NCBI RefSeq assembly: GCF_963664735.1
Contig: NZ_OY761553.1
Span: forward strand, 3,159,001 to 3,223,000
Source: an uncultured Cohaesibacter sp.
GTDB taxonomy: Bacteria > Pseudomonadota > Alphaproteobacteria > Rhizobiales > Cohaesibacteraceae
Length of the DNA stretch: 64,000 nt
Direction: 5' to 3'
The translations under genes and the position numbers were made by a program. Below the pieces are notes generated by a model, which was not told the origin of the DNA, did not search any database, and was given only the letters and a program-made list of their open reading frames with translations. This document shows positions 14,279 through 44,448 of the stretch, in pieces; within the stretch, counting starts at the first letter, position 1; every line of letters starts with the position of its first letter.

Positions 14279-14298
14279 ATGGCGGAGAGACAGGGATT
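14279..14298. repeat. Attachment-site core, distal end of element 1
   Basis: ATGGCGGAGAGACAGGGATT is identical to 27903-27922 and 44358-44377, the 3' end of tRNA-Ser(GGA) including the encoded CCA. The match ends after 20 bases. Confidence 0.85.
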
Positions 14299-14390
14299 TT
14301 AGCTCTCACAACCTATTCTTTATACAAATCAACAACTTAATCCCGTCATGATAGCCTGCAATGTAGCACTTTACTGTAACAAACTCAATC

Positions 14391-14858
14391 TTATCTTTTC
14401 GCAAGAACTATACCTGCCTCGGCTACCCGGTCAGGCGTAATATGTGACCGGTTAATCTTGTCTAGCGCTTTTGCCTCTTCATTGGTCAAAATCACCAAGC
14501 GGTAGGTGGATTTTATGTGTTCAACGATCTGAGCATCAGTTTGGCCTTCTTGAATGAGATCACAAAGCTGTCTTGCAAACGCCCTCTGAGGCATCACATG
14601 CTCAACTCGCACGTTTGAAATTGAAGCCTTCCTAGCCACAAGAGCCTTTACGCTTATCTCCACTTTCTGATCGCTTATTACTTTACTTGGATGCTTTATG
14701 TGGGGGTAGCAAATCGCTCTACAAAGAATATCAGCAATGCGTTCTATCGAGTGAATCGCCCCTCCGTTATCCGTAAAACCAAGCTCAAGCGCTTCCTGTC
14801 TAGCTCTAACGAACGTTCTCAGCGCAGGAATTAGATTTTCAGCAGTATACTTGGGCAT
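14391..14858 (-). CDS. Unknown protein at the end of restriction operon 1
   Basis: I do not recognise this 155-residue protein with certainty. It is basic and mostly helical. Its C-terminal half has VRVEHVMPQRAFARQL and later LTNEEAKALDKINRSHITPDR. The EHVMP segment and the trailing conserved-looking part recall HNH-type nuclease relatives, but a full HNH site is not visible. It has a good ribosome site (GAGG, 7 bases before ATG), is last in the hsd operon 44 bases after the metallopeptidase gene, and lies next to the element end. Confidence 0.55.
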   Translation of the reverse strand: MPKYTAENLIPALRTFVRARQEALELGFTDNGGAIHSIERIADILCRAICYPHIKHPSKVISDQKVEISVKALVARKASISNVRVEHVMPQRAFARQLCDLIQEGQTDAQIVEHIKSTYRLVILTNEEAKALDKINRSHITPDRVAEAGIVLAKR

Positions 14859-14901
14859 TTCGACACCTCAGTATATTTCAAGAGATCAGTAATTCGCTGT
14901 T

Positions 14902-15654
14902 CTACTCATTCAGCAACACTTCCGCCCAATCATCAAGCTTGGCCTTTATGGGTTGCCAGCCAGGTTGATAGCGGTCTAGCAGGTCGTAAAAGGCCTTGCT
15001 GTGATTGTGCTCCTTTAGATGGCAAAGTTCGTGCAGGAGAACATGATCGATGCAGTCACGCGGAGCCCGAACCAAAAATGGATGAAGCCGAAGTATGCCG
15101 TCAGTTGCGCAACTTCCCCACCGTTTCTGCATCTCGAGGAGTTCGAATTTGGGCGGCGTCTCGATCCAGGGCAATCTGGCGCAAATCTCTTTGATGCCTT
15201 GAGAGAAGACTTTTTGGGCACGGAACTTATGCCAGGCTCGTATCCTTACACGAATGGTGTCGGGATCACGGGTCTCAGTAAAAATCTCAAGACTGCCGCG
15301 ATAGAGGCGCGTTCTCCGCTCTGCCTTTGGGGCATCAATCAGTTTGAGCTGATAACGGCGGCCAAGATAGAAGATCTCCTCTCCGCTCACATATTCACGT
15401 TCGAGAACATTGCTGCACCGTTCCTGCGCTTGAGCCACATTATCGGAGATCCACCGAGCCTTGGACTGAACGGCTTTCTGGATAGCCACAAGCGGTGCTC
15501 CCGCACTAGCCAGCACTTGAACGGTTCCATCGGGTTCCACATTGATGGCGATCTTGCCTGAAGGGCGATCTTCGCGGAGAACAACATAAGGCAGCCTCGT
15601 GTCACCATAGACAAACAGATGGCGCTCTGGTTCGGTTTCTTCAGAAGCTGCCAT
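14902..15654 (-). CDS. YgjP/M48-like metallopeptidase-domain protein
   Basis: The 250-residue protein has the zinc signature HVLLHELCHLKEHNHSKAFY near residue 207, where HELCH plus a downstream histidine fits the YgjP-like (DUF45) fold. It also has KRWGSCATDGILRLHPFLVRAP just before it. Proteins of this family often stand beside type I restriction genes. Their substrate there is not established. The gene overlaps the end of hsdR by 14 bases, so it belongs to the operon. Confidence 0.82.
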   Translation of the reverse strand: MAASEETEPERHLFVYGDTRLPYVVLREDRPSGKIAINVEPDGTVQVLASAGAPLVAIQKAVQSKARWISDNVAQAQERCSNVLEREYVSGEEIFYLGRRYQLKLIDAPKAERRTRLYRGSLEIFTETRDPDTIRVRIRAWHKFRAQKVFSQGIKEICARLPWIETPPKFELLEMQKRWGSCATDGILRLHPFLVRAPRDCIDHVLLHELCHLKEHNHSKAFYDLLDRYQPGWQPIKAKLDDWAEVLLNE

Positions 15655-18600
15655 TGGTGGCCCCTGCTCTCACCTTATCCTGGATCGCAGCGATCAGCTT
15701 TTGCGCTATCGTTATGTCGCCGTAGGTCTTGAAGAAAGGCGGCAGAAGGCTCCTGCTGATGTCATTCATGATGTCTTCCTGGCTAAGTGAGTTGGCGGCG
15801 ATGGCATTCATCACCACGCTGTCTACCAGCTGCGCCTCGGCAATGAAATGCTCTTCTCCCAGCTCCTCGAAGCGAACCGGATCCACCTGCTGTTTGAAAA
15901 TGCCGTAGTAGGCCCGAACATGACGGTTTTCCTTGATTGCCTCAGGAATATCCGCTGGAGCGCCACCCTTCACCTGCTCTTCAAGATCCTTGAACAGATC
16001 ATACTGCTTGCCTGGGAAGTCAAACATTGCTTCGGCTTCAGCGATGGCCTCTCTCAATAACTCCGAGAAGACTGCCTGAGCGTATGGATCATCAGCCAGG
16101 TCCACCTCGATGGTCTGGGTGACGCGGGTACGGATGAGATCAGCCTCATTCTTCTTCTTCTCATCGCTCCAGTCTTCAGGATCCTCGGAATTGTCGCCAG
16201 TGTTTCCACCAACCTGAATCAGGCCATCGGGATCCTTAATGGCAACACCAGTGACCTGATCGTCGAGCAGGTTTCGGATCTGCTTCTCATATTGAGAGAA
16301 GTCCACTGTCTCCATGGCATCAGCCCGAGCCTGTTGCCTGATCGCCATGAAGAACTTGAGATCAGCCTTGTAGCGGTTCAACTTCACCTCATCAAAACCG
16401 GGATCTTCGAAGAAGGCACGGGTCGAGGTCGCCAGCTTCAGGCACATGCCGAAGTTGGTCAGCGCCACATAGAAGTCCTCGCGGAACTTGAGGTTGACGT
16501 CATAAGACATCCCCTCTTCAGCCACCATCTTTGGCACCAGAAGGCGGCGGAACTGCTCCTTATCGGCTTTATTCTGGACACCAGCAAACAGAGCCCAAAG
16601 CTCTCGATGCAGTTTCGGGAGTTGGAGATACTCGGTGCTGACATTAGCATAGATGCCCTCGAGATCCTCAGGGTCGTAACCATCACGGGTCTCTTCGGCC
16701 AGCTTCTGATAGTCATGCAGTGAGGTATCGAGCTCCTTGAGGATGCCACGATAGTCGACCAGATAGCCGAACTTCTTATCCTCATGCAGGCGGTTCACAC
16801 GGGCAATGGCCTGGAGAAGATTGTGCTGCTTGAGATCCTTGTCGATATAGAGCACGGCATTGCGCGGCTCATCAAAGCCGGTGAGCAGTTTGTCGACCAC
16901 AATCAGAATGTCCGGCGGTCCAACCAGGGAGAAGCCCGAAATAACACTTTCTTCATAGGCATCTGCATCATTGCCAACATTATCCGCCCACCAGGTCTGC
17001 ACCTCGGGTGCGTTGGCGGCGTTGGTGTCCTCGTGGCCTTCGCGGGTGTCCGGTGGCGAGATGATCACAGCGGAGGTGACCATACCGGTTTCATCCAGCA
17101 CCTTCTTGTAGCGGATGGCCGAGAGCTTGCTGTCCGTCGCCAACTGGCCCTTTAGGCCGATGGCCTTAAAGCTGTCACAGAAGTGCGTGGCGATGTCATA
17201 GGCGATAAGGCGGATGCGTTGTTCGGCTCCATAAACCTGGCCCTTGCTGGAGAACTTGCGCTTGAGGTCAGCTTTCTGTTCATCAGTCAGGCCTGTGGTA
17301 ATTTTCTCGAACCAATTGTCGATGGCCTTGTCGTTGATGTCCAGCATCGGCTGCCTTTCTTCATAGAGCAGAGGCGTGACAGTGCCGTCATCCACGGCCT
17401 CGCGCATGGTGTAGGCGTGAAGGATCTTGCCGAACTTGTTCTCGGTCTTGCGCTCTTTCAGCAGCGGAGTGCCAGTAAAGGCGATGAAGGCAGCATTGGG
17501 CAGGGCAAGCTGCATCCGCTCGTGGTTCTCGCCGCCCTGGCTGCGGTGACCTTCATCCACCAGCACGATCATGTCTTCGCTGTCATTCTTGCACTCGGGG
17601 TATTTGGTGGCCGAGTTAAACTTCTGCAGCAGGGTGAAGATGATCCGGTCGGTTCCTGCCCCGATCCGCTTTGCAAGATCCTGGCCGCTTTCTGCCCTGG
17701 CCTTCTCGCCTTCCTTCTTGGTCGCAATAGCCGAACCGAAAGCACCACCAGACCGGAAGGTGGCCGCAAGTTGCTTCTCAAGGTCTGTGCGGTCGAGCAC
17801 GATGAGCAATCGACATTTGGCCAGGTCTGGATTGTGCAACAGGGCGCGGCAGAGGAACACCATGGTGTAGCTCTTGCCCGAGCCGGTGGTGTGCCAGATG
17901 ATGCCGCCCTTGCGTTTCTTGCCTGAGGCGCTTTTCTCGTCACGCTGCTGCACCTGGGCCAGCATGGCGCGAACGCCGAAGAACTGCTGATACCGAGCCG
18001 CGACCTTGCCAACCTTGCTGTCAAACAACAGGAAGTAACGGACGAATTCGAGCAGCCGGTCGGGTCTGGCTATGCCAATGAGCAACCGGTCCTGTTCGGT
18101 CAGGGCCATGTCGGCAGACCAGAGCACCGAGAGATGGGCCTTCACCTTTGCCGACAACCCCGCCAACAATGCGGACTTCTGTGCCTCATCAAGTGGCCGG
18201 TTCTTCAGCGCCAGCATGTCGCCTTCCGAGAATTCCTCCTCGTGCCAGGCAGCCCAGAATTTCAGCGGCGTTTCGGTGGTGCCATATCGGGCCTGGCTTT
18301 CGGCGAGAGCCATCAACACCTGACCATAGGCATAAAGGCTCTGAATGCCATTGGGCATCTGATTACGCAGATGTTGCGAGATCGCCTCTTCCACCATCTT
18401 GTCCTTGTTGGCGGTCACGGCCTTTTTGGCTTCGATGATCAGCAGTGGCAAGCCATTTACGAAACCGACAATGTCCGGGCGATAGGTCGTCGTCTGACCC
18501 TGCCGTTCAACGCTCATCTCCTCGGTCACCTCGAACCGATTGGCGCTGATATTCTGCCAGTCCACCAGCGAAACGGTAACGGACTGCTTGTGACCGTCGG

Positions 18601-18937
18601 GCATGAATTCGGAAACGGTGATGCCGAGAGTGAGGATGGTGTGCAGCGCTTCATTGGCCTTGGCGAGCCCTTGCGCAAGCCCAAGATTGGTGACGCCCTT
18701 CATCACCTGCGCCTTGCCATCATCGGACAGTGGATAGAGCTTGCCGCGATAGTCGAAACGATAGGCATCGAGCCACACCCGAAGGCTGTCCTCCAGCAGC
18801 ACTGTTCGATTGGAACCGCGACGAACCTGGCATTCATCGGCGGAAATATAGGTCCAGCCCATATTGACCATCAGTGCCAGCGCCGGGATCTTGGAGGCAG
18901 CTTCTTCGGTGGTGATGGGCGCGGAATGATCGAGCAT
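15641..18937 (-). CDS. hsdR: Type I restriction enzyme, R subunit (element 1)
   Basis: I start at the ATG at 18937, where GAGG lies 6 bases before it, giving 1098 residues. The N-terminal nuclease core reads RPDIVGFVNGLPLLIIEAKK, matching the D-x-n-ExK pattern. The helicase motor has Walker A HTTGSGKS near residue 350, LVDEGHRS near 457 and FTGTP. A C-terminal helical part completes the subunit. HsdR translocates DNA and cuts when HsdM and HsdS meet unmethylated sites. It is the fourth gene of hsdM-hsdS-orf94-hsdR-ygjP-like-orf155. Confidence 0.95.
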   Translation of the reverse strand: MLDHSAPITTEEAASKIPALALMVNMGWTYISADECQVRRGSNRTVLLEDSLRVWLDAYRFDYRGKLYPLSDDGKAQVMKGVTNLGLAQGLAKANEALHTILTLGITVSEFMPDGHKQSVTVSLVDWQNISANRFEVTEEMSVERQGQTTTYRPDIVGFVNGLPLLIIEAKKAVTANKDKMVEEAISQHLRNQMPNGIQSLYAYGQVLMALAESQARYGTTETPLKFWAAWHEEEFSEGDMLALKNRPLDEAQKSALLAGLSAKVKAHLSVLWSADMALTEQDRLLIGIARPDRLLEFVRYFLLFDSKVGKVAARYQQFFGVRAMLAQVQQRDEKSASGKKRKGGIIWHTTGSGKSYTMVFLCRALLHNPDLAKCRLLIVLDRTDLEKQLAATFRSGGAFGSAIATKKEGEKARAESGQDLAKRIGAGTDRIIFTLLQKFNSATKYPECKNDSEDMIVLVDEGHRSQGGENHERMQLALPNAAFIAFTGTPLLKERKTENKFGKILHAYTMREAVDDGTVTPLLYEERQPMLDINDKAIDNWFEKITTGLTDEQKADLKRKFSSKGQVYGAEQRIRLIAYDIATHFCDSFKAIGLKGQLATDSKLSAIRYKKVLDETGMVTSAVIISPPDTREGHEDTNAANAPEVQTWWADNVGNDADAYEESVISGFSLVGPPDILIVVDKLLTGFDEPRNAVLYIDKDLKQHNLLQAIARVNRLHEDKKFGYLVDYRGILKELDTSLHDYQKLAEETRDGYDPEDLEGIYANVSTEYLQLPKLHRELWALFAGVQNKADKEQFRRLLVPKMVAEEGMSYDVNLKFREDFYVALTNFGMCLKLATSTRAFFEDPGFDEVKLNRYKADLKFFMAIRQQARADAMETVDFSQYEKQIRNLLDDQVTGVAIKDPDGLIQVGGNTGDNSEDPEDWSDEKKKNEADLIRTRVTQTIEVDLADDPYAQAVFSELLREAIAEAEAMFDFPGKQYDLFKDLEEQVKGGAPADIPEAIKENRHVRAYYGIFKQQVDPVRFEELGEEHFIAEAQLVDSVVMNAIAANSLSQEDIMNDISRSLLPPFFKTYGDITIAQKLIAAIQDKVRAGATNGSF

Positions 18938-19006
18938 GGTGGCCTCGGGCAATGAACAGGACTTTGTAAAAAGAGGACGGCAAACCGACCTCAAACTGTT
19001 GTCATG

Positions 19007-19291
19007 TCAGCACAACAGAGCAGCCAAGAGCAAGGTGAGGTTGAAGAAAAAGAACCTTTGCCACCAAAAAGGACAGCCCTCCACTGCCTCACAGGGCCAA
19101 TTGAAATGGGAATAGAGGACGGGAAAGCTCTTGCGCATGGAGCGGGAGCACTCGACATCCATGGTCGTCGGGTAGGCTTCCCCTTTCACCGGTCGCACGT
19201 GGAGACTGGAGCTCTTGCCGCTCTTTGTCGCCGCGTAGGTCTCGACAACAATTTGCTGGTAGTCACTCCATGGGGCATTCACATCGGTCAT
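19007..19291 (-). CDS. Small protein between hsdS and hsdR, possibly truncated
   Basis: The ATG shares one base with the hsdS stop (TGATG), so translation is likely coupled. The 94 residues start with VNAPWSDYQQIVVETYAATKS and contain TTMDVECSRSMRKSFPV followed directly by LYSHFNWPCEAV. The junction looks like an internal loss. The tail is a hydrophobic, phenylalanine-rich stretch (FFFFNLTLLLAALLC) unlike the rest. I do not know a function. It could be a decaying gene. Confidence 0.5.
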   Translation of the reverse strand: MTDVNAPWSDYQQIVVETYAATKSGKSSSLHVRPVKGEAYPTTMDVECSRSMRKSFPVLYSHFNWPCEAVEGCPFWWQRFFFFNLTLLLAALLC

Positions 19292-20412
19292 CAGACCTTC
19301 ACCCGCTTCCTACCCGTCAGCAACTGCTGCATGAGGGCACGTTTCTCGGTTCGGAGGTGGGTGATCTTGGCCTCCTCATTCTTCTCAAGGCATGATGCTT
19401 GACCGAGTACCTCGCAAACAGCTCTCTGCTCGTGTTGATCAGGTAATCGAATTTTGATGCTGTTGAGCGTATCCCTTGACAGGCTTGGCACCCCAGATGC
19501 TTCGTTGAACCGCCGTAGGTCCAGCGCACTAATCAGCCAAAACAAATAACCGATTTGGTATCCTGGCTTAGCAGAACACACAAAAGTCGTGTCGATAGGC
19601 CAGAAGCGTCCTTTCACGAATGACGGTTTATCGATGGTACCTTTCCGACCGATAACCACATTTTCACCTTCAAACATCCAGTCGTTCGTCTTCCCGGTTT
19701 CTCCACCCGTTCCGATGACAGGGTAAGCCCCGTTGAGGCAGATAACGTCTTTGGGAGACTTGCCATAAACAAGCGTCGCGCTGTCCCCCAGCTTCACGGT
19801 CTTCCAATCGCCATCAAATCCGGGGAGGCGGCGGGTGCCGGTGAGGAGCTGTTGCATCAGGGCCTTTTTCTGAAGCCGCGCATTCTCCAGCTGCTGCTCC
19901 GCCACCTCAATCGCCCGGTCCCACGTCGACAGGATCTCGGCAATCTTCTTCTGTTCGGGGAGCGGGGGGAGTTGTATCGTCAGCCTTTCAAACTCCTTCT
20001 GGCCGAGCGTCTTGTTTCGGCCCGCCCCTCCGGGAGACGCGAGTTCGAGAAGGTGTTTTCCTTTGGGCGTCAAAAACAAATATCGAAGAAAAGAAACATC
20101 TGCTCTATCAGATTTTCCACGAAACATTGGAAATCTGTGAGAGGCAATTAGTCCTTCCATGGACTGATCAGTTTCCGCGACTGCCTGTTCCCATGCAAAA
20201 ACGATGTTTACGATCAGGCACTCTGGAACAATCCAGAAAACTCTTTTGTTTCCCAGCTCCTCACCTTTTACAGAATCCTTGATAAATGTCCCTTTGCCGT
20301 GAGAGCGAATGCCGATCTGCGTGTATTCTCGCTCAGGCTGAACGCTTACTGGGCGAACAACACGATCAAGTACATCGCCCAACTTCTCGAACTTCCATCC
20401 CTCAGGCACCAT
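19291..20412 (-). CDS. hsdS: Type I restriction enzyme, specificity subunit (element 1)
   Basis: The 373-residue protein has the classic layout: target domain 1, a conserved helical spacer (LPPLPEQKKIAEILSTWDRA and KKALMQQLLTG), target domain 2, and a second spacer (HEQRAVCEVLGQ and KRALMQQLLTG). The two target domains set the bipartite DNA site, which I cannot predict. It overlaps hsdM by 11 bases upstream and orf94 by 1 base downstream. Confidence 0.94.
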   Translation of the reverse strand: MVPEGWKFEKLGDVLDRVVRPVSVQPEREYTQIGIRSHGKGTFIKDSVKGEELGNKRVFWIVPECLIVNIVFAWEQAVAETDQSMEGLIASHRFPMFRGKSDRADVSFLRYLFLTPKGKHLLELASPGGAGRNKTLGQKEFERLTIQLPPLPEQKKIAEILSTWDRAIEVAEQQLENARLQKKALMQQLLTGTRRLPGFDGDWKTVKLGDSATLVYGKSPKDVICLNGAYPVIGTGGETGKTNDWMFEGENVVIGRKGTIDKPSFVKGRFWPIDTTFVCSAKPGYQIGYLFWLISALDLRRFNEASGVPSLSRDTLNSIKIRLPDQHEQRAVCEVLGQASCLEKNEEAKITHLRTEKRALMQQLLTGRKRVKV

Positions 20413-21916
20413 AACCGAGCTCCTTGAGATAGGCGTCCATCTTGGCTTCCAGCTCGGCCATTTCCGCGTTCAGGGCCTTCCGTTCCGTGCGGACGGCGAC
20501 GAGGTCTATCTCCTCTTCTTCTTCGAAGGTGTCGACATAGCGCGGAATGTTGAGGTTGAAGTCGTTCTCGGCAATCTGCTCAAGGCTGGCGCGATAGGCG
20601 TATTTATCGAGCGTCTCCCGAGCGCGGTAGGTTTTGATGATCTTCTCGATCTGCGTTTCGCCGAGGCGGTTCTGGTTCTTGCCGTCTTCATACTCACGGC
20701 TGGCATCGATGAACAGCACCGAGCTGTCGGGCTTGTTGTGCTTGAAGATGAGGATCGCCGCCGGTATGCCAGTACCGAAGAACAGCTTCTCGGGCAGACC
20801 AATGACAGCATCGAGCAGGTTATCCTCGATCAGCGCTTTGCGGATCTTGCCTTCCGATGAGGCACGGAACAGCACCCCATGGGGCACCACCACCGCCATG
20901 CGCCCCGTGTCGGGCTTCAGGGTCTCCACCATGTGGGAGATGAAGGCATAGTCACCCTTGGTCTTGGGTGGCAGACCGCGCCAGAAGCGCTTGTGCGGGT
21001 CTTTCTCGGCGCTACCAATGCCCCACTTGTCGAGGCTGAAGGGCGGATTGGCCACCACCACGTCAAAATGTAGCAGCTTGCCATTGCCGTCCTGGAGCTT
21101 GGGGTTGCGGATGGTATCGCCCCACTCGATGCGATGGTTGGTCTCGCCATGCAGGAACATGTTCATCTTGGCCAGCGCCCAGGTCGCGCCGATGCTCTCC
21201 TGCCCATAGAGCTCGTAGGTGCGTTTGCCAGTTTCCTCCAGAATGCGCCGACCGCATTTCATCAGAAGCGAGCCGGAGCCGCATGTCGGGTCGCAGATCT
21301 GATCGCCCTCCTTCGGCTCGACAAGATGGGACATGAGCGTGGACACCTCTGCCGGGGTGTAGAACTCCCCTGCCGACTTGCCTGCCTCTGAGGCAAAGCG
21401 CGAGATGAGATATTCGTAGGCCCCGCCGATGACATCGAGCGCCCCTACCCGGCTCGGGCGCAGGTCAAGCTCATCTTTGGCGAAGTCCTCAAGCAGGAAG
21501 CGCAGAGTATCGTTCTTCTGATCCTCGTCTCCGAGCTTGTTGGAGTTGAAGCTGATGTCCTGGAAAACGTCGCGCAGCTTGGTGCCGTTGGCATCTTCGA
21601 TGGCATGGAGGGCCTTGTCGATGCGCTCGCCATTCTTCGGCTCATGCCGGTGTTCAAAAAGAAAGCCGAAGCTGGCATGAGGCGGCAGGACGAAGTTCTC
21701 CTTGGCCATCATGGCTTCGATCAGCTCGGGGGCATCGCCATACTGCGCCTTGTAGCCCTCATAGTGGTCGCTCCAGACATCGGAGATGTATTTGAGGAAC
21801 AGCATGGTGAGGACGTAGTTCTTGTAGTCCGCTGCATCCACGACACCCCGGAAGGTGTCACACACCGCCCAGGCGGCCTTGTTGATCTGATCCTGGGTGA
21901 CGAGACGTTCCGCCAT
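20402..21916 (-). CDS. hsdM: Type I restriction enzyme, methyltransferase subunit (element 1)
   Basis: The 504-residue protein has the HsdM N-terminal helical domain and then the AdoMet-binding segment CDPTCGSGSLLMKCG near residue 210. It also has the N6-adenine catalytic motif VVANPPFSLDKW near 286, and AGEFYTPAEVSTLM, typical of type I subunits. It methylates adenine within sites chosen by HsdS. A ribosome site AAGGAAG precedes the ATG. It heads the operon and is divergent from the ParB-like gene. Confidence 0.95.
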   Translation of the reverse strand: MAERLVTQDQINKAAWAVCDTFRGVVDAADYKNYVLTMLFLKYISDVWSDHYEGYKAQYGDAPELIEAMMAKENFVLPPHASFGFLFEHRHEPKNGERIDKALHAIEDANGTKLRDVFQDISFNSNKLGDEDQKNDTLRFLLEDFAKDELDLRPSRVGALDVIGGAYEYLISRFASEAGKSAGEFYTPAEVSTLMSHLVEPKEGDQICDPTCGSGSLLMKCGRRILEETGKRTYELYGQESIGATWALAKMNMFLHGETNHRIEWGDTIRNPKLQDGNGKLLHFDVVVANPPFSLDKWGIGSAEKDPHKRFWRGLPPKTKGDYAFISHMVETLKPDTGRMAVVVPHGVLFRASSEGKIRKALIEDNLLDAVIGLPEKLFFGTGIPAAILIFKHNKPDSSVLFIDASREYEDGKNQNRLGETQIEKIIKTYRARETLDKYAYRASLEQIAENDFNLNIPRYVDTFEEEEEIDLVAVRTERKALNAEMAELEAKMDAYLKELGYGA

Positions 21917-22172
21917 GCTTCTTCCTTGTCTTGTTCCTCGTGTGCTCCGCGAAGCACTTCATGCGGGACAGAGTAGGCGTTTGCTCGGCTGGAGGGAAGA
22001 GGCCGAAGGGCGAACTTTCACAGACAGGTAGGCTCTGACAGCGTAGCCTACGGCCCCTTTTTCAAGCACACCATTATCGAGCATCATCCACCACATTTTC
22101 AATCACTGATTTTAGTTGCGTATAACGTACAACAACAGCGGTTTTGGCCGCTCATTCAACGCAAGGAGCATC

Positions 22173-23015: not shown

Positions 23016-23045
23016 TCAGCCTTCACTGATCTCCTGAATTTCACC

Positions 23046-23076
23046 AAGGCTCCGCTCATGTAAACGGGGCCTTTTT
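23046..23076 (+). terminator. Terminator after the ParB-like gene
   Basis: An interrupted stem (AAGGC, CCG / CGG, GCCTT) with a 10-base loop runs directly into five T residues, 31 bases after the stop. Confidence 0.75.
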
Positions 23077-23131
23077 CATATCCGGCGGGGTGCAATCCCT
23101 TCGCCACCATCAGACAATCAAAGGAAATACC

Positions 23132-23533
23132 ATGAGAATTATCACTGACATCCACACCGCTTACCTCGACAACATGCCTCTCAACTTCTTCATCCAGTTT
23201 GAAGAAAATGGCAAAATGAAGCTGTTCTATTCCACCCACGATCTTAGACGTATCGCTGCTTGCTTTGTCCGAGCCGAAAATGCTTGGGACTTCATCGAAC
23301 AGTGCGAACGAGAAGTTGGCGTCCATGAATTCATTATGTCAAACCAAAAGGACACCTATCGTGTAGCGGAAGTCTGGTACCTCTCGCCGCTTCTTGAAGA
23401 CGACAGGATTGAGTTCCACCTCCCTGAAGAAATTGCCGATTGGATCATCCAAGAGAGCATGGTCGCCTCAGACAAGGCACTTGAGTACGGCAGAGATATG
23501 CTCGAGCAAGAAGAAGAACTGCTTCCATTCTAA
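23132..23533 (+). CDS. Unknown acidic protein of element 1
   Basis: The ATG at 23132 follows AAAGGAA and gives 133 residues. I do not recognise a family. The sequence is acidic, has [20 protein letters not shown] and a C-terminal helix ending EQEEELLPF, and no signal or membrane segment. It lies between the ParB-like and RNase HI genes on the same strand, so it is probably part of the element backbone. Confidence 0.65.
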
Positions 23534-23769
23534 GGGCAGTCAGAGCAGACCTCGGTGTTGCCGCCGGGGTCTCACTCGCTAACCAGAGTAACCCTCCTGT
23601 CCATTCCTTAGGCTGTACATTTTGTACAAGCTGGCGCTCGTTCTGGATGTTCTGCGCAAAAATCCAAGCGATCAATCAGATATACAGCTCGCGCCTCCCC
23701 CCCCCTGTGGGGGCCTCGAACCTACCCAACCCACTTCACCATTTCTCAAACATGGAGGCCGGTCCAACC

Positions 23770-24363: not shown

Positions 24364-24384
24364 AAGTCCAAGAGGTAATGAACA

Positions 24385-37308: not shown

Positions 37309-37313
37309 GGCAT

Positions 37314-37556
37314 CTATTCCTCAAAAAGCCCCAAATAACTGCCTACTTGGGCAGCAGCATTTACAAATTCACGAGCAGTCTCCACATCCATTAATACACT
37401 ACTTCCATTCACATTTAGGTAGATGCTATCTTGCCCCTCAGAGCCATCTTCAAGGCGACACCCGGCATAATAAGACGAACGCCCGAACTCGACAAAAAGT
37501 GAGTTTTCCTTATCTTGGTCTTTGATTTCTTTTTCAAAATACATAGTTGTGGCCAT
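37314..37556 (-). CDS. Small protein between hsdS and hsdR (element 2)
   Basis: The ATG at 37556 has AGGAG about 6 bases upstream and gives 80 residues. The earlier in-frame start lies inside hsdS and has no support. The protein is acidic with RSSYYAGCRLEDGSEGQDSI and LMDVETAREFVNAAAQVGSY. I do not recognise it. Its position 10 bases after hsdS and 5 bases before hsdR means it is co-expressed with the enzyme and could modulate it. Confidence 0.7.
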   Translation of the reverse strand: MATTMYFEKEIKDQDKENSLFVEFGRSSYYAGCRLEDGSEGQDSIYLNVNGSSVLMDVETAREFVNAAAQVGSYLGLFEE

Positions 37557-37566
37557 AGTTTTCTCC

Positions 37567-38673
37567 TTAAACGAACATCTTTTGCAGAAGGCCTTTTTTG
37601 AAGGTCTCCACTTGTGAAATCTGAGCAGAAACAGCCTCAATTTTGGCATCTAGGGCGGAAAGGGCATCGGCGATTTTGGCTTGTTCATCCGGATGAGGGA
37701 TTGGAACCGTAAAGAACTGATATTGTGAAATCCAATGCCGTTTATGGTCACTAGGCTTATACTGAATCAGTTTCATTAGCTCGAAAATTAATCTAAGTCG
37801 AATTTCTGAAGACCTTGGCTCAAGTATTTTCATCGCCGAAGATTTAGCCTTAAAAGCAAAGTCTACAAACTTAGAATCAGTCGTGAAATCATCAAAAATA
37901 ATTACCGGCAGGTTTTTAGAAAAAATACCATCTTTTTCGCTTGTATAGCCGAGTATAAAAGTCTTACCCGCGGTTAGCACAGGTGTTTCAAACTCATCCG
38001 AATAATCAACATTTTTAACTAGATATTTAGATGGCTGCTGATATTTCAGCAGTTCTCCTAATTCAATATCTTCCCAATCCGGGAAAGCGGAGCCGTCGGG
38101 GCGGGTGAAGCGCAAAGTGCCGGAGAAGAGCTGTTGCATCAGTCCGCGCTTATAGTCCTCAAGCGCCGCCTTCTTCTGGTTCAGAAGCTCGATCTTCTTC
38201 GACACGGCATCAAGGAAAGAGGCGATTTTTTGTTGTTCGGAAAGTGATGGGATCGGGGACCACTCCCGATGAAGATCATTCCTGTTAACTCCAGGAACAC
38301 CAGTCTTATCACTTAGCTTTTTGAAATCAACACGCTCTAATGCGAAGTAGACAAAGCGCGGCAAGTTTCCATGAAAATCTTTCACAAAAAGTGCCGTATT
38401 TAATGGCCAAAATGGCTGATCTAAATAGAAGTGATCACCAATGCTACCGTAACGACCAGTTACGATTCCTGGCGCGTCAACTTTTGCCTCGATATGTGAC
38501 CCTGATACACCTCCTGAAGATATGACTTTGTAAGGACCCGGCGTCCTAGAATGTGAAGGAAGATCAAATCCTCGTTGAAATGTGGCAACTTGCCCGAGCC
38601 GAAGACGCATCCACTCTCCTTCAAACTCAGGAAACCGCAATTCAGGCACCAAAGGGTTTTGTCCTGAGCTCAT
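37567..38673 (-). CDS. hsdS: Type I restriction enzyme, specificity subunit (element 2)
   Basis: I place the start at the ATG at 38673, which overlaps the hsdM stop as ATGA. The listed upstream start would add ten residues. The 368 residues show two target domains and two helical spacers (SLSEQQKIASFLDAVSKKIE with GLMQQLFSGTLRF, then HPDEQAKIADALSALDAKIE with KGLLQKMF). The second target domain is visibly more AT-rich, consistent with domain swapping between hsdS genes. Confidence 0.94.
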   Translation of the reverse strand: MSSGQNPLVPELRFPEFEGEWMRLRLGQVATFQRGFDLPSHSRTPGPYKVISSGGVSGSHIEAKVDAPGIVTGRYGSIGDHFYLDQPFWPLNTALFVKDFHGNLPRFVYFALERVDFKKLSDKTGVPGVNRNDLHREWSPIPSLSEQQKIASFLDAVSKKIELLNQKKAALEDYKRGLMQQLFSGTLRFTRPDGSAFPDWEDIELGELLKYQQPSKYLVKNVDYSDEFETPVLTAGKTFILGYTSEKDGIFSKNLPVIIFDDFTTDSKFVDFAFKAKSSAMKILEPRSSEIRLRLIFELMKLIQYKPSDHKRHWISQYQFFTVPIPHPDEQAKIADALSALDAKIEAVSAQISQVETFKKGLLQKMFV

Positions 38674-40220
38674 ACCGGAGACTCCAGACCGAGCTCTGCA
38701 CAAAATGCAATGATCTCAGCATCTATCGCACTCATGTCGCCTTCAATCCGCTTCAGCTTATCGATCACAGCGGAGAGTTTCACCTCCGGCTCAGCCTCAA
38801 ACGTATCGACATAGCGCGGGATATTGAGGTTGTAGTCATTCTCTGCGATTTCTTCGCGGCTTGCATTATGAGAGAAACGCTCTTCCTCCGATCGCGAGCG
38901 GTAGGCCGCAACAATGCGGTCGACATCTTCATCACGCAGAGTGTTCTGGTTCTTGCCCTTTTCGAAACAACCGGACGCATCAACAAAAAGGATGTCATCC
39001 GCCTCACGGCACTTTTTGAAGACAAGAATGCAAGTAGGAATGCCCGTGCCGTAGAATATATTGGCCGGAAGACCGATGACCGCATCAAGCCAATTTTTGC
39101 TTTCCACCAGAAACTGCCGGATTGCCCCTTCCGCACCACCGCGGAACAACACGCCATGGGGTAGGATCACGGCCATGGTGCCGTCTTCATCCAGATGATG
39201 CAGCATATGCTGAACGAAGGCGAAATCCGCCTTGGAGCTCGGCGCCAGCTTGCCATATTCAGAAAAACGATCATCTGACTCGAACAACTTGTTGGCCGAC
39301 CATTTTGCAGAGAAGGGCGGATTGGCCACGACTGCCTCAAAGCGCATGCCCTCATGCTGGGGATGTTCAAGCGTATCTTCCTGCTTGATATTGAAGTTGC
39401 GATAATGCACGCCATGCAGGATCATGTTCATGCGCGCAAGGTTGTATGTGGTGCGGTTCCATTCCTGCCCGAAGAAATCTCCCACATGAGAGACTTCGCG
39501 CGCCACGCGCAACAACAGGGAGCCCGACCCACATGTCGGATCATAGACCGAGCGCAGACGATCTTTGCCGGTGGTGACAATACGCGCCAGAATGGTCGAG
39601 ACCTGTTGTGGAGTATAGAATTCACCCGCCTTCTTGCCTGCCCCGGAGGCAAACTGGCCAATAAGATATTCGTAGGCATCGCCCAAAACATCGGAATTGG
39701 CATTGGAAAGCTCGAAGTCGATGCCATCCAGATGTCCAAGCACCTTGCCAATAAGCGTATTCCTCGCTTCCGGCGTGCGGCCAATCTTGGTTGAGGTGAG
39801 GTCCAGATCTTCGAAGAGATTGTCAAAGTCATCCTCGGACTCGGTGCCCATGGTCGACTGCTGGATATTGTTGAGAATGGCACCAAGGTCATCGAGAATG
39901 AACTGATCTGGCTGAGCGCCCTTCTTAGCCACTGCACTGAAGAGCTCTGAAGGCTTCAGATAGTAGCCCAGTGCTTCGAGACAGGCCTTTTTGACTGCGG
40001 ACAAATACTCCGCATGCTCGACTTCATCCAGATCAGCGAATTTCAGCCCGTCATATTCAAGCGCCTTGTCGGCGTAGAGATTGAGCCGCTCAGACAGATA
40101 TTTGTAGAAAATGAAGCCGAGGATATAGTCACGAAAACCGTCCGCATCCATGCGCCCGCGCAGCTCATTGGCGATGTTCCAGAGCTTCTGCTCCAGCTTC
40201 TTCTTCTGTTCTTCCGTCAA
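38670..40220 (-). CDS. hsdM: Type I restriction enzyme, methyltransferase subunit (element 2)
   Basis: The protein has DPTCGSGSLLLRVAREV and the adenine methyltransferase motif VVANPPFSAKW, with AGEFYTPQQVSTIL upstream of the first. The start is uncertain. I prefer TTG at 40220, which follows GGGGA by 6 bases and gives the family-typical LTEEQKKKLEQKLWNIANEL beginning (516 residues). A TTG 39 bases earlier would give 529. No in-frame ATG precedes the conserved part. Stop and hsdS start overlap. Confidence 0.93.
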   Translation of the reverse strand: MTEEQKKKLEQKLWNIANELRGRMDADGFRDYILGFIFYKYLSERLNLYADKALEYDGLKFADLDEVEHAEYLSAVKKACLEALGYYLKPSELFSAVAKKGAQPDQFILDDLGAILNNIQQSTMGTESEDDFDNLFEDLDLTSTKIGRTPEARNTLIGKVLGHLDGIDFELSNANSDVLGDAYEYLIGQFASGAGKKAGEFYTPQQVSTILARIVTTGKDRLRSVYDPTCGSGSLLLRVAREVSHVGDFFGQEWNRTTYNLARMNMILHGVHYRNFNIKQEDTLEHPQHEGMRFEAVVANPPFSAKWSANKLFESDDRFSEYGKLAPSSKADFAFVQHMLHHLDEDGTMAVILPHGVLFRGGAEGAIRQFLVESKNWLDAVIGLPANIFYGTGIPTCILVFKKCREADDILFVDASGCFEKGKNQNTLRDEDVDRIVAAYRSRSEEERFSHNASREEIAENDYNLNIPRYVDTFEAEPEVKLSAVIDKLKRIEGDMSAIDAEIIAFCAELGLESPV

Positions 40221-40488
40221 GTCTGATCCCCAAAACTCCAGTGTCTGGCACAAGGCCAAAGCATATACTTCTTATCAGGATCTTGGTTCCGGACTTCCGG
40301 CTATTTGAAAGCGTTCGAGATAAAACGCAGAGTTGAAATCAGGACACAAGAATCGCCATATATGTTTCGTGCCACACGCCCTGACTCTGGTCAAGCAAAT
40401 GCCGTTTTCTGCAGCGTGGGCCGGGTTAGACCATTTCTGTTATGCACCGACCGTCTATTCTGTGTCTCTTAGAAGGAAGAGGCAAAAA

Positions 40489-41247
40489 TCAAGAATGCTT
40501 TGCTTTTCGCTTTTCCCACCAACCGGGCAGCACTTCTTCTATTTGCTCATCAGTCCAACCGGCTTTCCGACGCGCATGCCGCCAAACCTTTTCAGCATTT
40601 TTGTCCTTTTTATACTGTTCACGCTCTTCAGCGGTCATGCCAGCCAATTCTTCCTTAGGCATCACCTTATTAGGCTTGGTGCGCACTTTCCTGCGACTGG
40701 CGTTATAGACATCTCGCCCCTCTCCAGCTCGCCAATGATCTATATCGCGCCGCTTCCTCCAGTCATCATCTATCGCCCGACGCTTCTCCTCCTCAAAAGC
40801 TTCTTTGGCATTTTCAAGCGTTTTGCTAGCAATAAGCCAATCTCGCGTTCCTTGTTTCAAAGTGCTTAGGCGATCTTGTGCCTTTCTCATTTTTCTGCGA
40901 GCCTTGTCATACGGCTGCAAAACCGGAGGTTGTCTTATAATGTCGCCATTTCTCATATCTTCGAGACGCTCTGCCTCTGCTTCGGCTTCTGTCATGCCTC
41001 GGAAACATTCCTTTGGCTCGGCTTCCGGGTTGGAAATGATCTCATCGAACTCATCGAGCACTCGCTTCTCAACGGAAGATAACTCTCGCTTTTTGCTCTG
41101 ATGGGAATCGCTGGTGACGACGACTTCTGCACCGGGATGATCATTAGAATTTGGGAAATATTTTTCCATGTTTGAAGCAAAACGTTCTTCGTCACTCAGA
41201 TCGTCATTTTCTTCCATATCGCATTCTTTACCGCAGTGAAGCCTCAT
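40489..41247 (-). CDS. Unknown highly charged helical protein
   Basis: I do not recognise this 252-residue protein. It is rich in Glu, Lys and Arg, with a likely coiled coil around residues 110-165 (KARRKMRKAQDRLSTLKQGT) and a C-terminus WRHARRKAGWTDEQIEEVL followed by PGWWEKRKAKHS. The ATG at 41247 has GGAG close before it, and an ATG ten codons later is also possible. The promoter side faces a 14-bp inverted repeat framing AT-rich DNA, so it may bind there. Confidence 0.6.
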   Translation of the reverse strand: MRLHCGKECDMEENDDLSDEERFASNMEKYFPNSNDHPGAEVVVTSDSHQSKKRELSSVEKRVLDEFDEIISNPEAEPKECFRGMTEAEAEAERLEDMRNGDIIRQPPVLQPYDKARRKMRKAQDRLSTLKQGTRDWLIASKTLENAKEAFEEEKRRAIDDDWRKRRDIDHWRAGEGRDVYNASRRKVRTKPNKVMPKEELAGMTAEEREQYKKDKNAEKVWRHARRKAGWTDEQIEEVLPGWWEKRKAKHS

Positions 41248-41263
41248 AATCTCCGGACAGACT

Positions 41264-41355
41264 AAACTAACCTTTTGCTCGTATGTCTTATATCTTTCCT
41301 ATTTATATGTTTATTATGTAATATATTTAGTAATAGGCGCACAAAAGGTTAGTTT
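41264..41355. repeat. 14-bp inverted repeat framing AT-rich DNA
   Basis: AAACTAACCTTTTG at 41264-41277 is the exact reverse complement of 41342-41355. The 64 bases between are strongly AT-rich. Confidence 0.8.
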
Positions 41356-41772
41356 TCATCCTCTCCCGGTTAAGATGGTGTGAGAGGCCGTGATTGCAAT
41401 TCGTAGTTCTACCGCTCTTAACATGAAGCGCGGCACATGCTCACAAGGAGGCTCCGGTCAGGATAAGCAGAGCCTGAAGGAGCAAGGCGGCAGAGCCATC
41501 CTCCTATGAATAGTTACGGCGGAGTTCGCTAAAGATCCGGACTGATGCCTTCATAGGCGTTTTAAAGCGCACTCTTACAGATCATGCAGCCCAAAACAAA
41601 CTAATCCGGAGTGTGCAATTTAAATGTGCTCCAGGATGTCTGAGGTTGACGCCTCAGCAACATCACTTCTTTGTGCGCTGTCTTTTACATGCCGGAACAA
41701 ACGTCTCTGTATGAGCTCCTGAGACTCTTCTCTCTGAAACGGACTTTCATTGACCGGCAAATGTTTCAAAGT

Positions 41773-41828
41773 CCGTCTACTCTCTATTATTATATATTAT
41801 CTATTATATACATATAGAGAGTAGACGG
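41773..41828. repeat. 15-bp inverted repeat framing AT-rich DNA
   Basis: CCGTCTACTCTCTAT at 41773-41787 is the exact reverse complement of 41814-41828. The 26 bases between are almost entirely A and T. Confidence 0.85.
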
Positions 41829-42345
41829 CGAATTAAGCTGCTCCGGAGAAGCGCCTAAAATGCCGTATTTGAGGCGTTAAACGCAGGTTTTCTTGTCTCA
41901 AAAGCTTCCGGTCTATCGATTTGCATCTTAAGAGATAGAACACGTGCCAGGATTCACGAGGATCACGCTCAGAGCACATCCTTTGTCGTTGACGTGTCGT
42001 TGTTCTCTGAAGCGAGGGAACGCCCCTTGAGCTGCTGAAAGCATTTCCGAAATCAGAGCCTCATGACGATACGTTTCTTTACAGCTAAAGAGGCTCTCTT
42101 CTCCGGTAGAGTTGCTCATAGGCAAGCCGCCTCATTGTCTTTAGGCTCTTAAAATATGTATTCGCCTTGTTGGTCTGGATAAGGCGTTTTGTGCTCGTTC
42201 GCCTTCTCTCTTACGCTCCGCGTTTTCTTATTTGCGACTTTTGCTAAGTTTACACTTTTCCGAAAAACGCGAAATCGGGCGATTTTGTCAAGTAAACGTA
42301 AAGTTTTGTAAAGTTAGGAGCGATTTTTAACCGATCTGAGGTTAA

Positions 42346-42477
42346 TTTTGTCAAGGTCCTGTCAAGGTGAGGATATGAATTTAGTGCAATAAGTGCACTT
42401 TTCAGAGCCTTGTCAAGGCGTTTGTCAGGGATTTGTCAAGGTTTGTCAGGGCAAGTGTCAAGGTTTGTCAAGGCGAG
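42346..42477. repeat. Iteron-like TTTGTCAAGG array
   Basis: About eight copies of TTTGTCA(A/G)GG or close variants occur: 42346, 42359, 42409, 42421, 42431, 42442, 42455 and 42464. The last six are almost head to tail. A further TTTTGTCAAG stands at 42283-42292. All are in the same orientation. Confidence 0.82.
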
Positions 42478-42653
42478 TTAACAGTGAAATGCTCTTTTTA
42501 CGAGCAATCTCTGCACCTGCAAAGCAACTAACAATAGACAAGACCCGCAGACATTTTGAACTAGACGGCTTCTACTCTTCGCATTTCGGAAGAACTAATC
42601 GTATGGCCAAATTGCCCTAAAACCAACTTGTAGTGTTATGGCACGACCAACCC

Positions 42654-42860
42654 TCAGATTGGCCCAATACCTCCATGCTCCTTCTTCTCTAACCAGGCGG
42701 CAAAGCTATCAACCAAAAGCTCTTTCATGCTCATGCCACTAGCAACGGCGGCTATCTTGAACCGCGTATGCCATTCAACCGGCATATTGAAGGTCATACC
42801 AACAAGCTTTTCCTCGGGCTTGCCTTCACCCTTATCGTCTTCGTCACTAAAATCAGCCAT
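42654..42860 (-). CDS. Small ribbon-helix-helix-like protein
   Basis: The 68-residue protein has an acidic start and then a MTFNMPVEWHTRFKIAAVAS segment followed by GMSMKELLVDSFAAWLEK. This is the strand-helix-helix pattern of RHH DNA-binding proteins. It lies 3 bases after the integrase gene on the same strand and faces the iteron-like array, so it could control integrase, excision or the array. Confidence 0.72.
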   Translation of the reverse strand: MADFSDEDDKGEGKPEEKLVGMTFNMPVEWHTRFKIAAVASGMSMKELLVDSFAAWLEKKEHGGIGPI

Positions 42861-42863
42861 AGA

Positions 42864-44273
42864 TCACTCCTCTTTAGCCAATAAATTGGTATTTATTATT
42901 CGCAACAACCCAAAGTTCACGCGATCAATCCCGTCTTTCATGGACTCGACCATGGTCGTTGCCTGATCTGAGATATAAATGCCGCCTACTGATTGATCTT
43001 TGTGTCCGGTGATGAGGTCAGAGACATCACGATTGACACCACAGCGGGCTAATTCCGTCTTCATGCTATGCCGGAAGGAATGGAAGACCTTACGCTTGTC
43101 ACTAATACCGACCTTGGCTTTGTAGCTACGCAAAAACCAGCGATTGATCTTGTCTTCCGGCTCCCAGTCCCAAAAGAGGCGCTCTTTCTTCTGACGCCGT
43201 AGCTTCTCGACATAGCCCAGCAACCCAAGACGCATGAGATCTTGGTGAATGGGCACAAGACGTTTGGAATGGGCATTCTTGGTTGCTTCGATGAGGTCGA
43301 AAACATAAATGCCTTGCTCCTTGTAGATGTCAGTCAGCTTGATACGGCGGATCTCACTGGAAGATCGCGCACCGGTGTAAAGAGCAATCAGCAAGGCCCA
43401 ATGCTTGGATCTATACTGCGACGGATTTGCAAAGAAGCTGTTTGAAAACATCGCGCGGATATCTTCCGGCGAGAAGGCAACCCTTGACGGCTCCTGAAAG
43501 CCATTTCCGGTATCGACCTTGACCCCGTCACATGGATTGTCATCAATCAGCAGGTTCTTCTTGGCCCACGAGAGAATGGTATTGGTGTGTGAGAGCCATT
43601 TCTTGTTGATCGTATTCGGATGCAATGCCGGATAGGGCTTATTTCTCGCCTCATTCGCCTTGATCGCCTGAGGGATGGTGAGACCGGGAAAGCGTTGCTG
43701 ACAGTTGGCGGGCGTTCGGATTAACGCCTTTTTGTAATCAAGCATGTCTTGTCGTGTAATGGACTGAACAGGCCTTCCTTCCCCGATAAAGCTAGCTAGC
43801 ATCCGGACTGCGATAGCATGCTCTTTCTTTGTTCCGGGAGCCACATTGGATCGTTCTAGATGGAACCGCTCCAGCAGTTCTTCAAGAGACAAATCTGTCG
43901 TCGTCTTAGCTTCCGAGATGGAACGGACTGGTGCTTCAGAAGGCTTTTTCTCAGGGACCACAGTCGATTGTTGATCCGTAGAGGGGCCATCTACATATGT
44001 AGGCAGAACCGCGTCACTCTCTGTTGTCGCGTTCTCGCGTCGAGATTTAGCTTCGTCCAAGATGTCGTAGAAGCTTGCGAGAATGGCGTAGGAGCGCTTT
44101 TTGGCCTGCTTCGGGTCTGTGCCCAGACGCTTTTGCAATGTGGTGCGAGGTGTGCCGTCAGCCTTGACAATGAAGGGCCTTAACCGCTCCGGCACAGTTA
44201 CCCGTGCGCGATATTGCCCACGATAGAAATCGATGTTCTTGCCCAGCTTTGCCATCTGCATAGCGACACTCAT
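42864..44273 (-). CDS. int: Tyrosine integrase of element 2
   Basis: The 469-residue protein starts with an N-terminal segment typical of tRNA-targeting integrases (DFYRGQYRARVTVPERLRPFI), then a core-binding domain (LLERFHLERSNVAPGTKKEH). The catalytic domain has Arg in YTGARSSSEI near residue 300, HSFRHSM near 397, TGHKDQ, and the nucleophile tyrosine in VGGIYIS near 432. It differs from the element 1 integrase but targets the same tRNA. The start lies 86 bases from the tRNA 3' end. Confidence 0.93.
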   Translation of the reverse strand: MSVAMQMAKLGKNIDFYRGQYRARVTVPERLRPFIVKADGTPRTTLQKRLGTDPKQAKKRSYAILASFYDILDEAKSRRENATTESDAVLPTYVDGPSTDQQSTVVPEKKPSEAPVRSISEAKTTTDLSLEELLERFHLERSNVAPGTKKEHAIAVRMLASFIGEGRPVQSITRQDMLDYKKALIRTPANCQQRFPGLTIPQAIKANEARNKPYPALHPNTINKKWLSHTNTILSWAKKNLLIDDNPCDGVKVDTGNGFQEPSRVAFSPEDIRAMFSNSFFANPSQYRSKHWALLIALYTGARSSSEIRRIKLTDIYKEQGIYVFDLIEATKNAHSKRLVPIHQDLMRLGLLGYVEKLRRQKKERLFWDWEPEDKINRWFLRSYKAKVGISDKRKVFHSFRHSMKTELARCGVNRDVSDLITGHKDQSVGGIYISDQATTMVESMKDGIDRVNFGLLRIINTNLLAKEE

Positions 44274-44285
44274 TTTGAAACAAAC

Positions 44286-44309
44286 TTTGTATCAAAATTT
44301 GTAGCAAGC
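44286..44309. promoter_or_regulatory. Integrase-arm-like repeats before the element 2 integrase
   Basis: TTTGTATCAAAATTTGTAGC with AAGC following is a tandem pair of TTTGTAGCA-like units, closely matched at 14181-14204. Confidence 0.5.
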
Positions 44310-44358
44310 GGTGCTTGAGGTCAAGATTGTATAGGAGAAACAAACGGATAGCAGGTAA

Positions 44359-44448
44359 TGGCGGAGAGACAGGGATTCGAACCCTGGAGACGGTTACCCG
44401 CCTACACGCGTTCCAGGCGTGCGCCTTCGACCACTCGGCCACCTCTCC
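44359..44448 (-). tRNA. tRNA-Ser(GGA)
   Basis: The minus strand reads GGAGAGGTGGCCGAGTGGTC and continues as a 90-base class II tRNA. It has an anticodon stem CACGC/GCGTG with loop CTGGAAC (anticodon GGA), a long variable arm, the T-loop GGTTCGAATCC, and an encoded CCA. The 7-bp acceptor stem pairs with one G-T. Its 3' part is the target of both elements. Confidence 0.97.

Follow-up and report, generated by a model that had tools for sequence, protein, structure and literature searches.

Tandem integrative elements behind a tRNA-Ser(GGA) gene in Cohaesibacter

The tRNA-Ser(GGA) locus and its two elements

The window analysed here, the whole 64-kb stretch from base 3159001 to base 3223000 of a complete 4.94-Mb genome of the genus Cohaesibacter, contains a tRNA-Ser(GGA) gene, the sole tRNA in the window according to ARAGORN, and downstream of it two adjoining intervals, here called elements A and B, each of which carries a tyrosine integrase gene and a type I restriction-modification (hsd) operon. 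The layout of the locus, from the tRNA outwards, is as follows.

44359..44448, minus strand: tRNA-Ser(GGA), presumed integration target and tRNA-side boundary of element B (ARAGORN, Rfam)
27985..44357: element B, 16.4 kb; its ends and a regulator block are common to a B-type element in the relative G004
27903..27984, minus strand: 82-nt copy of the tRNA 3' end at the A/B boundary, 82/82 identical to the tRNA
14299..27902: element A, 13.6 kb; a near-identical element with the same gene order lies at another tRNA-Ser in the relative G010
14279..14298, minus strand: 20-nt copy of the tRNA 3' end at the distal end of element A, with a counterpart at tRNA-Ser(CGA) in G010

The two 3'-end copies, detected by a repeat search and an exact 13-mer search of the window, lie downstream of the tRNA gene in direct orientation. 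A previous sequence-only reading of this DNA had described three graded copies of the tRNA 3' end, of 20, 81 and 90 nt; the three copies and the length of the shortest are as described, whereas the middle copy measures 82 rather than 81 nt. In Rfam this middle copy is recognised as a truncated tRNA at 27914-27987, with 33.7 bits and a match to positions 7-64 of the 71-position model; in the 20-nt copy the first base falls just outside the tRNA. By simple arithmetic the chance of a 20-nt exact match in 64 kb is ~1e-7, and both copies are located at sharp breaks that recur in other genomes.

The two intervals share an arrangement of these genes. The integrase gene occupies the tRNA-side end, starts 85-90 bp from that end and is transcribed away from the tRNA, and the restriction operon lies on the minus strand in the order hsdM, hsdS, hsdR. 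The integrases int_A and int_B are only 29% identical over 320 aa; both score above the Pfam cut-off for PF00589, and both retain TGAR, HSFR and GH stretches and a near-terminal tyrosine, which we take to be the catalytic motifs of these enzymes. Different integrases, each in an element with its own type I system, are therefore found at 3'-end copies of the same tRNA-Ser(GGA), as the sequence-only reading had proposed, and sequence comparison confirms the observation of two tandem elements behind one tRNA gene.

Both operons contain hsdR, hsdS and hsdM genes encoding the expected domains, and both are predicted to specify active type I restriction-modification systems. HsdM of A and B are 38% identical over 518 aa and belong to the same NCBIfam family (TIGR00497), and both match PDB 3lkd best; the HsdR proteins share TIGR00348 and are 27% identical over 456 aa plus a shorter stretch. 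The suggestion that the two operons are unrelated is ruled out by the HsdM identity and the common families, and the low identities of HsdM and HsdR equally rule out a recent duplication of one operon. Judged from these alignments, the hsd operons are diverged homologues.

Relatives of elements A and B

The principal features of element A are listed here.

26086..27813, minus strand: int_A, tyrosine recombinase of 575 aa with DUF6538 and Phage_integrase domains (Pfam, PHROGs)
24940..26067, minus strand: gene for a 375-aa protein in low-G+C DNA, for which no homologue was found in the G010 copy of A
24385..24951, plus strand: serine recombinase (resolvase/invertase) (Pfam, PHROGs)
23647..24225, plus strand: RNase H (Pfam)
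22116..23015, plus strand: ParB-like protein (PHROGs phrog_1033, E 3e-5; no Pfam match)
20402..21916, minus strand: hsdM (TIGR00497)
19291..20412, minus strand: hsdS, 39-40% identical to its counterparts in G008 and G010, against 91-96% for hsdM and hsdR
15641..18994, minus strand: hsdR (TIGR00348)
14902..15654, minus strand: gene for a YgjP-like metallopeptidase, overlapping the end of hsdR (Pfam); it accompanies hsd in G008 and G010
14374..14381, plus strand: CTGTAACA, putative left-end arm site of A, kept in G010
27821..27828, plus strand: CTGTAACA, putative right-end arm site of A, kept in G010

In G010 an A-type element lies at tRNA-Ser(CGA) in the absence of B, with the same gene order and, at the far end, a 20-nt copy of the 3' end of tRNA-Ser(CGA). 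Long blocks of DNA are 87-95% identical to element A, and the junction alignments reach both of its ends. At the protein level the integrase (95%), resolvase (91%), RNase H (94%), HsdM (96%), HsdR (95%) and YgjP-like protein (94%) are closely similar, the ParB-like protein is 71% identical and HsdS only 40%. Within hsdS a 188-bp middle stretch is 95% identical in DNA sequence, and the stretches on both sides of it, presumably the two recognition regions, have no match. Two genes of A have no match in G010, a 155-aa open reading frame (ORF) at 14391-14858 and the 375-aa gene at 24940-26067. The latter lies within the lowest-G+C 1-kb step of A (0.39) and looks like a recent passenger; its product matches nothing in Pfam, NCBIfam, PADLOC or PHROGs, and by eye it looks amidoligase-like.

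Parts of element A also occur in other settings. At tRNA-Ser(GGA) of G008 a 12.4-kb interval ending in an 18-nt copy of the tRNA holds an A-like hsd-ygjP block in the opposite orientation (HsdM 94%, HsdR 91%, YgjP 71% and HsdS 39% identical to A). The integrase of that interval, 35% identical to int_A, is split into two ORFs and, because the block adjoins a different integrase, the A-type hsd block is present in another element backbone as well. G002 contains a relative of int_A (51%) in a 5.2-kb interval with an 18-nt copy. A survey of 297 genomes of the order returned 39 matches to the int_A family in 33 genomes; loci were assigned to 30 of these, one being int_A itself, and when the other 29 (L063-L091) were scanned, 20 had a tRNA gene within ~1.5 kb, a tRNA-Ser in seven cases. 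Among plasmid records 69 match int_A, all at <60% identity, and ten of them cover 80%. Elsewhere in the same genome as the window (1181000-1200500) a relative of int_A (31%) is located at tRNA-Ser(GCT), and 17 nt of the 3' end of this tRNA are repeated ~17 kb away; this second tRNA-Ser is probably the site of a further island.

Element B comprises the following features.

42864..44273, minus strand: int_B, tyrosine recombinase of 469 aa (Pfam), with a 57% identical homologue by tRNA-Ser(GCT) in Devosia
38670..40259, minus strand: hsdM (TIGR00497), matching the EcoR124II M protein at E 6e-111
37567..38703, minus strand: hsdS (Pfam)
34426..37308, minus strand: hsdR with an EcoR124-type C-terminus, PF12008 (Pfam, NCBIfam TIGR00348)
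33272..34220, plus strand: two HTH regulator genes, 33272-33658 and 33663-34220 (Pfam), common to the G004 B-type element
28371..29909, plus strand: Fic-domain protein, PADLOC candidate defence family PDC-S24 (E 9e-203)
28087..28120, plus strand: TTTGTAGCA pair, putative left-end arm sites of B, kept in G004
44286..44307, plus strand: TTTGTA(T/G)CAA pair, putative right-end arm sites of B, kept in G004

The B-type element of G004 is located at tRNA-Ser(GGA) without A, and has the same 82-nt boundary and the same ends with otherwise different cargo. Its inner boundary, identified as an 86-nt match (query 22-107 of 108, 98%) 20 kb from the tRNA gene (C1:2863521-2863606), corresponds to 27903-27984 and differs by one base within the 82 nt. 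The DNA is 93% identical over 27899-28123 and 85% over 43614-44568, that is at the two ends, and 85-86% over two stretches of the regulator block (33195-33595 and 33971-34380), whose HTH proteins are 81% (over 108 aa) and 72% (over 81 aa) identical; the rest of B has no further DNA match in the G004 element, and the integrase ORF there is 282 aa as against 469 aa here. The best int_B homologue (57%), that of Devosia rhodophyticola, adjoins tRNA-Ser(GCT). In the order survey six of the 297 genomes, the own genome included, contain a match to int_B. At one of the five other loci of this survey (L057) there is a 21-nt stretch with four mismatches to the core. Seven phage records match int_B, all at <60% identity and none covering 80% of the protein.

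These relatives bear directly on whether A and B are separate elements. One might argue that the 30 kb between 14279 and 44358 arrived in a single insertion as one composite element, of which the 82-nt copy is an internal relic, since both outer ends bear the common 20-nt core and joint excision would in principle be possible. Such a composite is very improbable: A is present without B at another tRNA-Ser in G010, a B-type element is present without A in G004, and A and B have separate integrases and separate repeats at their ends. That relatives hold these parts apart, and have other integrases at tRNA-Ser(GGA) in G002, G008 and G011, supports the serial capture suggested by the sequence-only reading. 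Just as unlikely is a history in which the fragments were produced by duplication of the tRNA gene and homologous recombination, with the integrases as bystanders, even though an almost complete tRNA such as the 82-nt copy would favour recombination. The fragments, in this genome as well as in G002, G004, G008 and G010, are direct-orientation 3' fragments, and the inner end sequence is conserved wherever a relative of A or B was compared; the position of the integrase genes close to the tRNA-side end and the frequency of tRNA genes at int_A-family loci likewise speak against this history. Related content in other genomes was found with tRNA repeats rather than without them, and these repeats consist of 3' fragments located where the elements have conserved ends, which is not the picture of tRNA duplication alone.

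Short repeats near the ends of the elements suggest how two integrases might share a target. CTGTAACA is present twice in the 64 kb, counting both strands, with one copy ~75 bp inward from each end of A. When one mismatch is allowed, TTTGTAGCAA forms pairs at 14181/14193, 28087/28111 and 44286/44298, and its near-matches in the window number ten against 4.3 expected, a total reached in 2 of 100 shuffles. Six of the seven copies of TGTAGCA are near element ends. From their sequence and placement we infer that CTGTAACA and TTTGTAGCAA may be the arm sites of two integrases that share one core; different end repeats in A and B would be expected if the enzymes differ in arm sites and have that core in common.

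Some observations on element B stand apart from this argument. A 1.6-kb stretch without ORFs of at least 80 aa contains a 27-nt inverted repeat with a 2-nt loop (41773-41828), and short direct repeats occur at 42434-42477. In G010 an N-terminal piece of an int_B relative (73%; locus L124, contig C20, 12395-12676) lies ~25 kb from tRNA-Ser(GGA) on the downstream side and may point to additional stacking; its surroundings in locus L098 revealed no core copy.

The site across the genus and the DNA left of element A

A survey of tRNA-Ser(GGA) in related genomes, which the sequence-only reading had proposed as a check, shows a conserved upstream side and a variable downstream side within the genus. 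Both sides of the gene were compared over 19,552 bp in 18 relatives, 16 of the same genus and two at family level (G005, a same-genus genome that is 64% complete and gave a weak match, was left out). Upstream, matches covered 12.6-18.8 kb in 15 same-genus genomes and 1.2 kb in the sixteenth, G009, and the family-level relatives matched over 2.6 kb (G018) and 0 kb (G019, where only 2.3 kb were available). Downstream, 13 of the 18 relatives matched over at most 117 bp and the maximum was 2.9 kb (G008), the available stretches of G009, G016 and G019 being short. As the conserved and variable sides meet at the tRNA 3' end, the site bears the marks of an integration hotspot. Sites without A and B are also found: in G003, G006, G007 and G013 the sequence of 13985-14298 abuts tRNA-Ser(GGA) directly (83-88% identical), and in G004 it is positioned outside the B-type element. 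We use these tRNA sites as sites without A and B, not as virgin sites, since what abuts the tRNA is itself a recurrent module.

13985..14278: module of ~290 bp, repeated at tRNA-Ser genes of the genus, with the pair TGTGTAGCAAAATGTGTAGCAA at 14181-14202

The module was found in 11 of 19 genomes (20 matches, including one 22-bp stray and two second pieces of interrupted copies). All 17 distinct copies abut ATGGCGG, a tRNA-Ser end; a whole tRNA-Ser follows in ten (four GGA, two CGA, four GCT) and only a fragment in seven. In the own genome tRNA-Ser(CGA) abuts the module; this site lacks A and is the counterpart of the CGA site that A occupies in G010. When 159 bp of the module were compared with the 297 genomes of the order, clear matches were confined to this genus (seven genomes), with two marginal matches (E ~1e-3) outside it, and Rfam returned no match up to E 1. 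Two copies, in G001 and G006, are interrupted by insertions of ~1.2-1.3 kb.

A larger block associated with the module is seen in G003, which has two module copies 30.8 kb apart, the first at the tRNA. Next to the far copy 20.1 kb are 92% identical to the own genome, from -11035 to 9085 in window coordinates, and this counterpart of the left block starts exactly at the tRNA-Ser core, an island boundary. Most of the DNA left of A therefore has the appearance of an older island block. The view of this region as ordinary chromosomal flank was rejected, both because of that boundary and because of the recurrence of 13985-14278 next to tRNA-Ser CGA and GCT genes and at isolated tRNA fragments. The DNA adjoining A on this side probably represents one end of an older element, and the locus is likely to consist of three layers, A, B and this older block. 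The two-element layout proposed for the locus is right as regards A and B and missed the probable third layer. In the own genome the far end of the left block has no intact core; it adjoins betaine-synthesis-like genes (named by eye). Between a TetR gene and the module, at 13000-14000 on the minus strand, a six-frame reading by eye revealed fragments of a disrupted esterase-like gene, which seems to be related to the one at 10265-11659.

No integrase like int_A or int_B was detected in the G003 block (ORFs of at least 80 aa, E up to 1e-4). The interval at tRNA-Ser(GCT) of G006 has one integrase match under the Pfam cut-off and another ORF with the DUF6538 N-terminal domain only. A full tyrosine recombinase is present in G001, ~10 kb away from the tRNA-Ser(GCT) module copy, but looks like part of a transposon because it matches one of seven equal-scoring copies in that genome. 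The module might mark the tRNA-side boundary of elements of a third class, 'C', poor in integrases. These would lack an integrase of the A or B families and be mobilised in trans at several tRNA-Ser genes by a B-type integrase, whose putative arm sites TTTGTAGCAA are close to the TGTGTAGCAA repeats of the module. We regard this proposal as doubtful; the module may be no more than a remnant of elements whose integrase was lost. Of 12 aligned copies, 6 contain a single TGTGTAGCAA repeat instead of two, so either the pair is dispensable or those copies are dead.

The site had also been described as one that loads defence genes, and here the evidence is divided. After merging matches <5 kb apart we counted 24 hsdS loci in 16 of the 19 genomes. 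Seven of these loci are within 30 kb of a tRNA-Ser among the tRNA matches listed, against 1.2 expected, and six within 10 kb against 0.4 expected, in a post hoc test that treats loci as independent, assumes four tRNA-Ser genes per genome and considers tRNA-Ser only. An association of hsdS loci with tRNA-Ser genes is in line with that description. At tRNA-Ser(GGA) itself, however, only G008 of the 18 relatives has an hsd operon nearby (the contigs of G009, G016 and G019 end early), and the site therefore takes varied cargo, not solely defence genes. Other diverged type I operons lie <10 kb from tRNA-Ser GCT or CGA genes at three loci, L117 and L119 in G015 and L118 in G014. The L117 operon is flanked by a 17-nt core copy on one side and, on the other, by a tRNA-Ser(GCT) that has an int_A relative; at L118 and L119 neither a core copy nor a relative of int_A or int_B was found.

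Probable stacking at the tRNA 3' end and comparison with known systems

Taken together, the data make it very probable that the 3' end of tRNA-Ser(GGA) serves as a hotspot where distinct integrative elements insert site-specifically and stack. Each element would enter as a circle, its integrase recombining an attachment site with the tRNA 3' end. As the attachment site brings a piece of tRNA 3' end with it, insertion would restore the tRNA, and the displaced fragment would mark the far end of the element. The next arrival could then use either the restored tRNA or the fragment, A and B could leave separately or jointly, and in both the type I restriction-modification operon would be exchangeable cargo. 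The 20-nt piece of A, corresponding to the T-arm and acceptor end, is nearly the same in several tRNA-Ser genes, which would explain why A is at GGA here and at CGA in G010; the 82-nt piece of B suggests that B may recombine elsewhere in the same tRNA gene.

Several observations weigh against this interpretation. No relaxase, conjugation or transfer gene was found by Pfam among 23 ORFs chosen from A and B (overlapping and short ORFs left out). Four of the ten TTTGTAGCAA near-matches sit elsewhere than at element ends, and the totals of CTGTAACA and TGTAGCA are at the level that simple arithmetic predicts by chance (~2 and ~8), only their placement being notable. In five int_B homologues (38-46%) no tRNA was found in loci reaching 1.5 kb past the match, and tRNA targeting therefore does not appear to be universal in the int_B group. 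Homologous recombination between tRNA copies could also have helped to move segments. Finally, the 82/82 identity of the middle copy to the tRNA leaves the order of arrival unreadable. B may have inserted first, with A entering the 82-nt fragment at its far end, or B may have inserted behind A. Either order yields the observed structure, and while G004 has a B-type element without A, G010 has A without B at an intact tRNA-Ser; the repeats do not discriminate, and we consider the two orders evenly balanced.

Tandem tRNA islands are a known kind of structure, of which this locus is a well supported and ordinary case, and stacking of this sort is a clear example of a known route by which bacteria accumulate foreign and defence genes. 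What the locus adds is the occurrence of one element at two different tRNA-Ser isoacceptors, its specificity subunit having been replaced, together with a genus-specific module. Within one genus there is a natural series: sites without A and B, a B-type element without A, A at a second tRNA-Ser, and the stack. The series makes it possible to test how tRNA-targeting integrases share one gene, in terms of core versus arm-site specificity and short versus long fragments, and how type I specificity subunits are exchanged while the remaining mobile operon stays ~95% identical. In the parts of the literature available to us on islands, integrases, defence, or Cohaesibacter combined with 'genomic island', nothing on this locus turned up.

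The restriction operon of B resembles the EcoR124-type type I system (PDB 7bst), which its HsdM matches and whose EcoR124_C domain is present in its HsdR, and differs in being borne on an element. For hotspots in genomic islands and satellites, defence genes have been described as cargo that is exchanged (PMC10121019, PMC12629846, PMC9122126). As far as the accessible parts of these reports extend, they concern other bacteria and other types of element. Among the 23 ORFs of A and B, Pfam detected no structural, packaging or phage replication family, and PHROGs, applied to ten of them, identified integrase, ParB-like, regulator and recombinase families and no structural one. Sinorhizobium meliloti is a related alphaproteobacterium. 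The portions consulted of a study of its insertion hotspots report two elements inserted sequentially in one tRNA gene (tRNA-Lys gene 039, strain KH46; PMC11476347); those hotspots, as described there, differ from the present locus in involving other tRNA genes and phage-related sequences.

The closest parallel is provided by the islands catalogued in Islander, which, in the sections of that report seen by us, have an intact tRNA at one end and fragments in direct orientation downstream (PMC4383910). Its Table 1 lists 3919 islands and has entries of 125 for 'Tandems >= 2' and 4 for 'Tandems >= 3', and attachment sites are divided into anticodon-centred and T-stem-region classes (PMC4383910). 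A and B have the form of such tandem islands: an intact tRNA stands at one end and a direct 3' fragment at the other, the 82-nt fragment substituting for the intact tRNA in the case of A, as in a tandem array, each interval contains a tyrosine integrase, and the lengths of 13.6 and 16.4 kb are within the range of 2-200 kb. With respect to the attachment-site classes, as far as the consulted text defines them, the 20-nt fragment of A fits the T-stem-region class, and the 82-nt fragment of B allows, without proving, the anticodon-centred one. Compared with the Islander tandems as presented in that text, the Cohaesibacter locus shares the arrangement of an intact tRNA with direct-orientation fragments downstream, and is distinguished by diverged integrases associated with 20- and 82-nt fragments of one tRNA, by a type I restriction operon in each element and by a probable older layer behind them.

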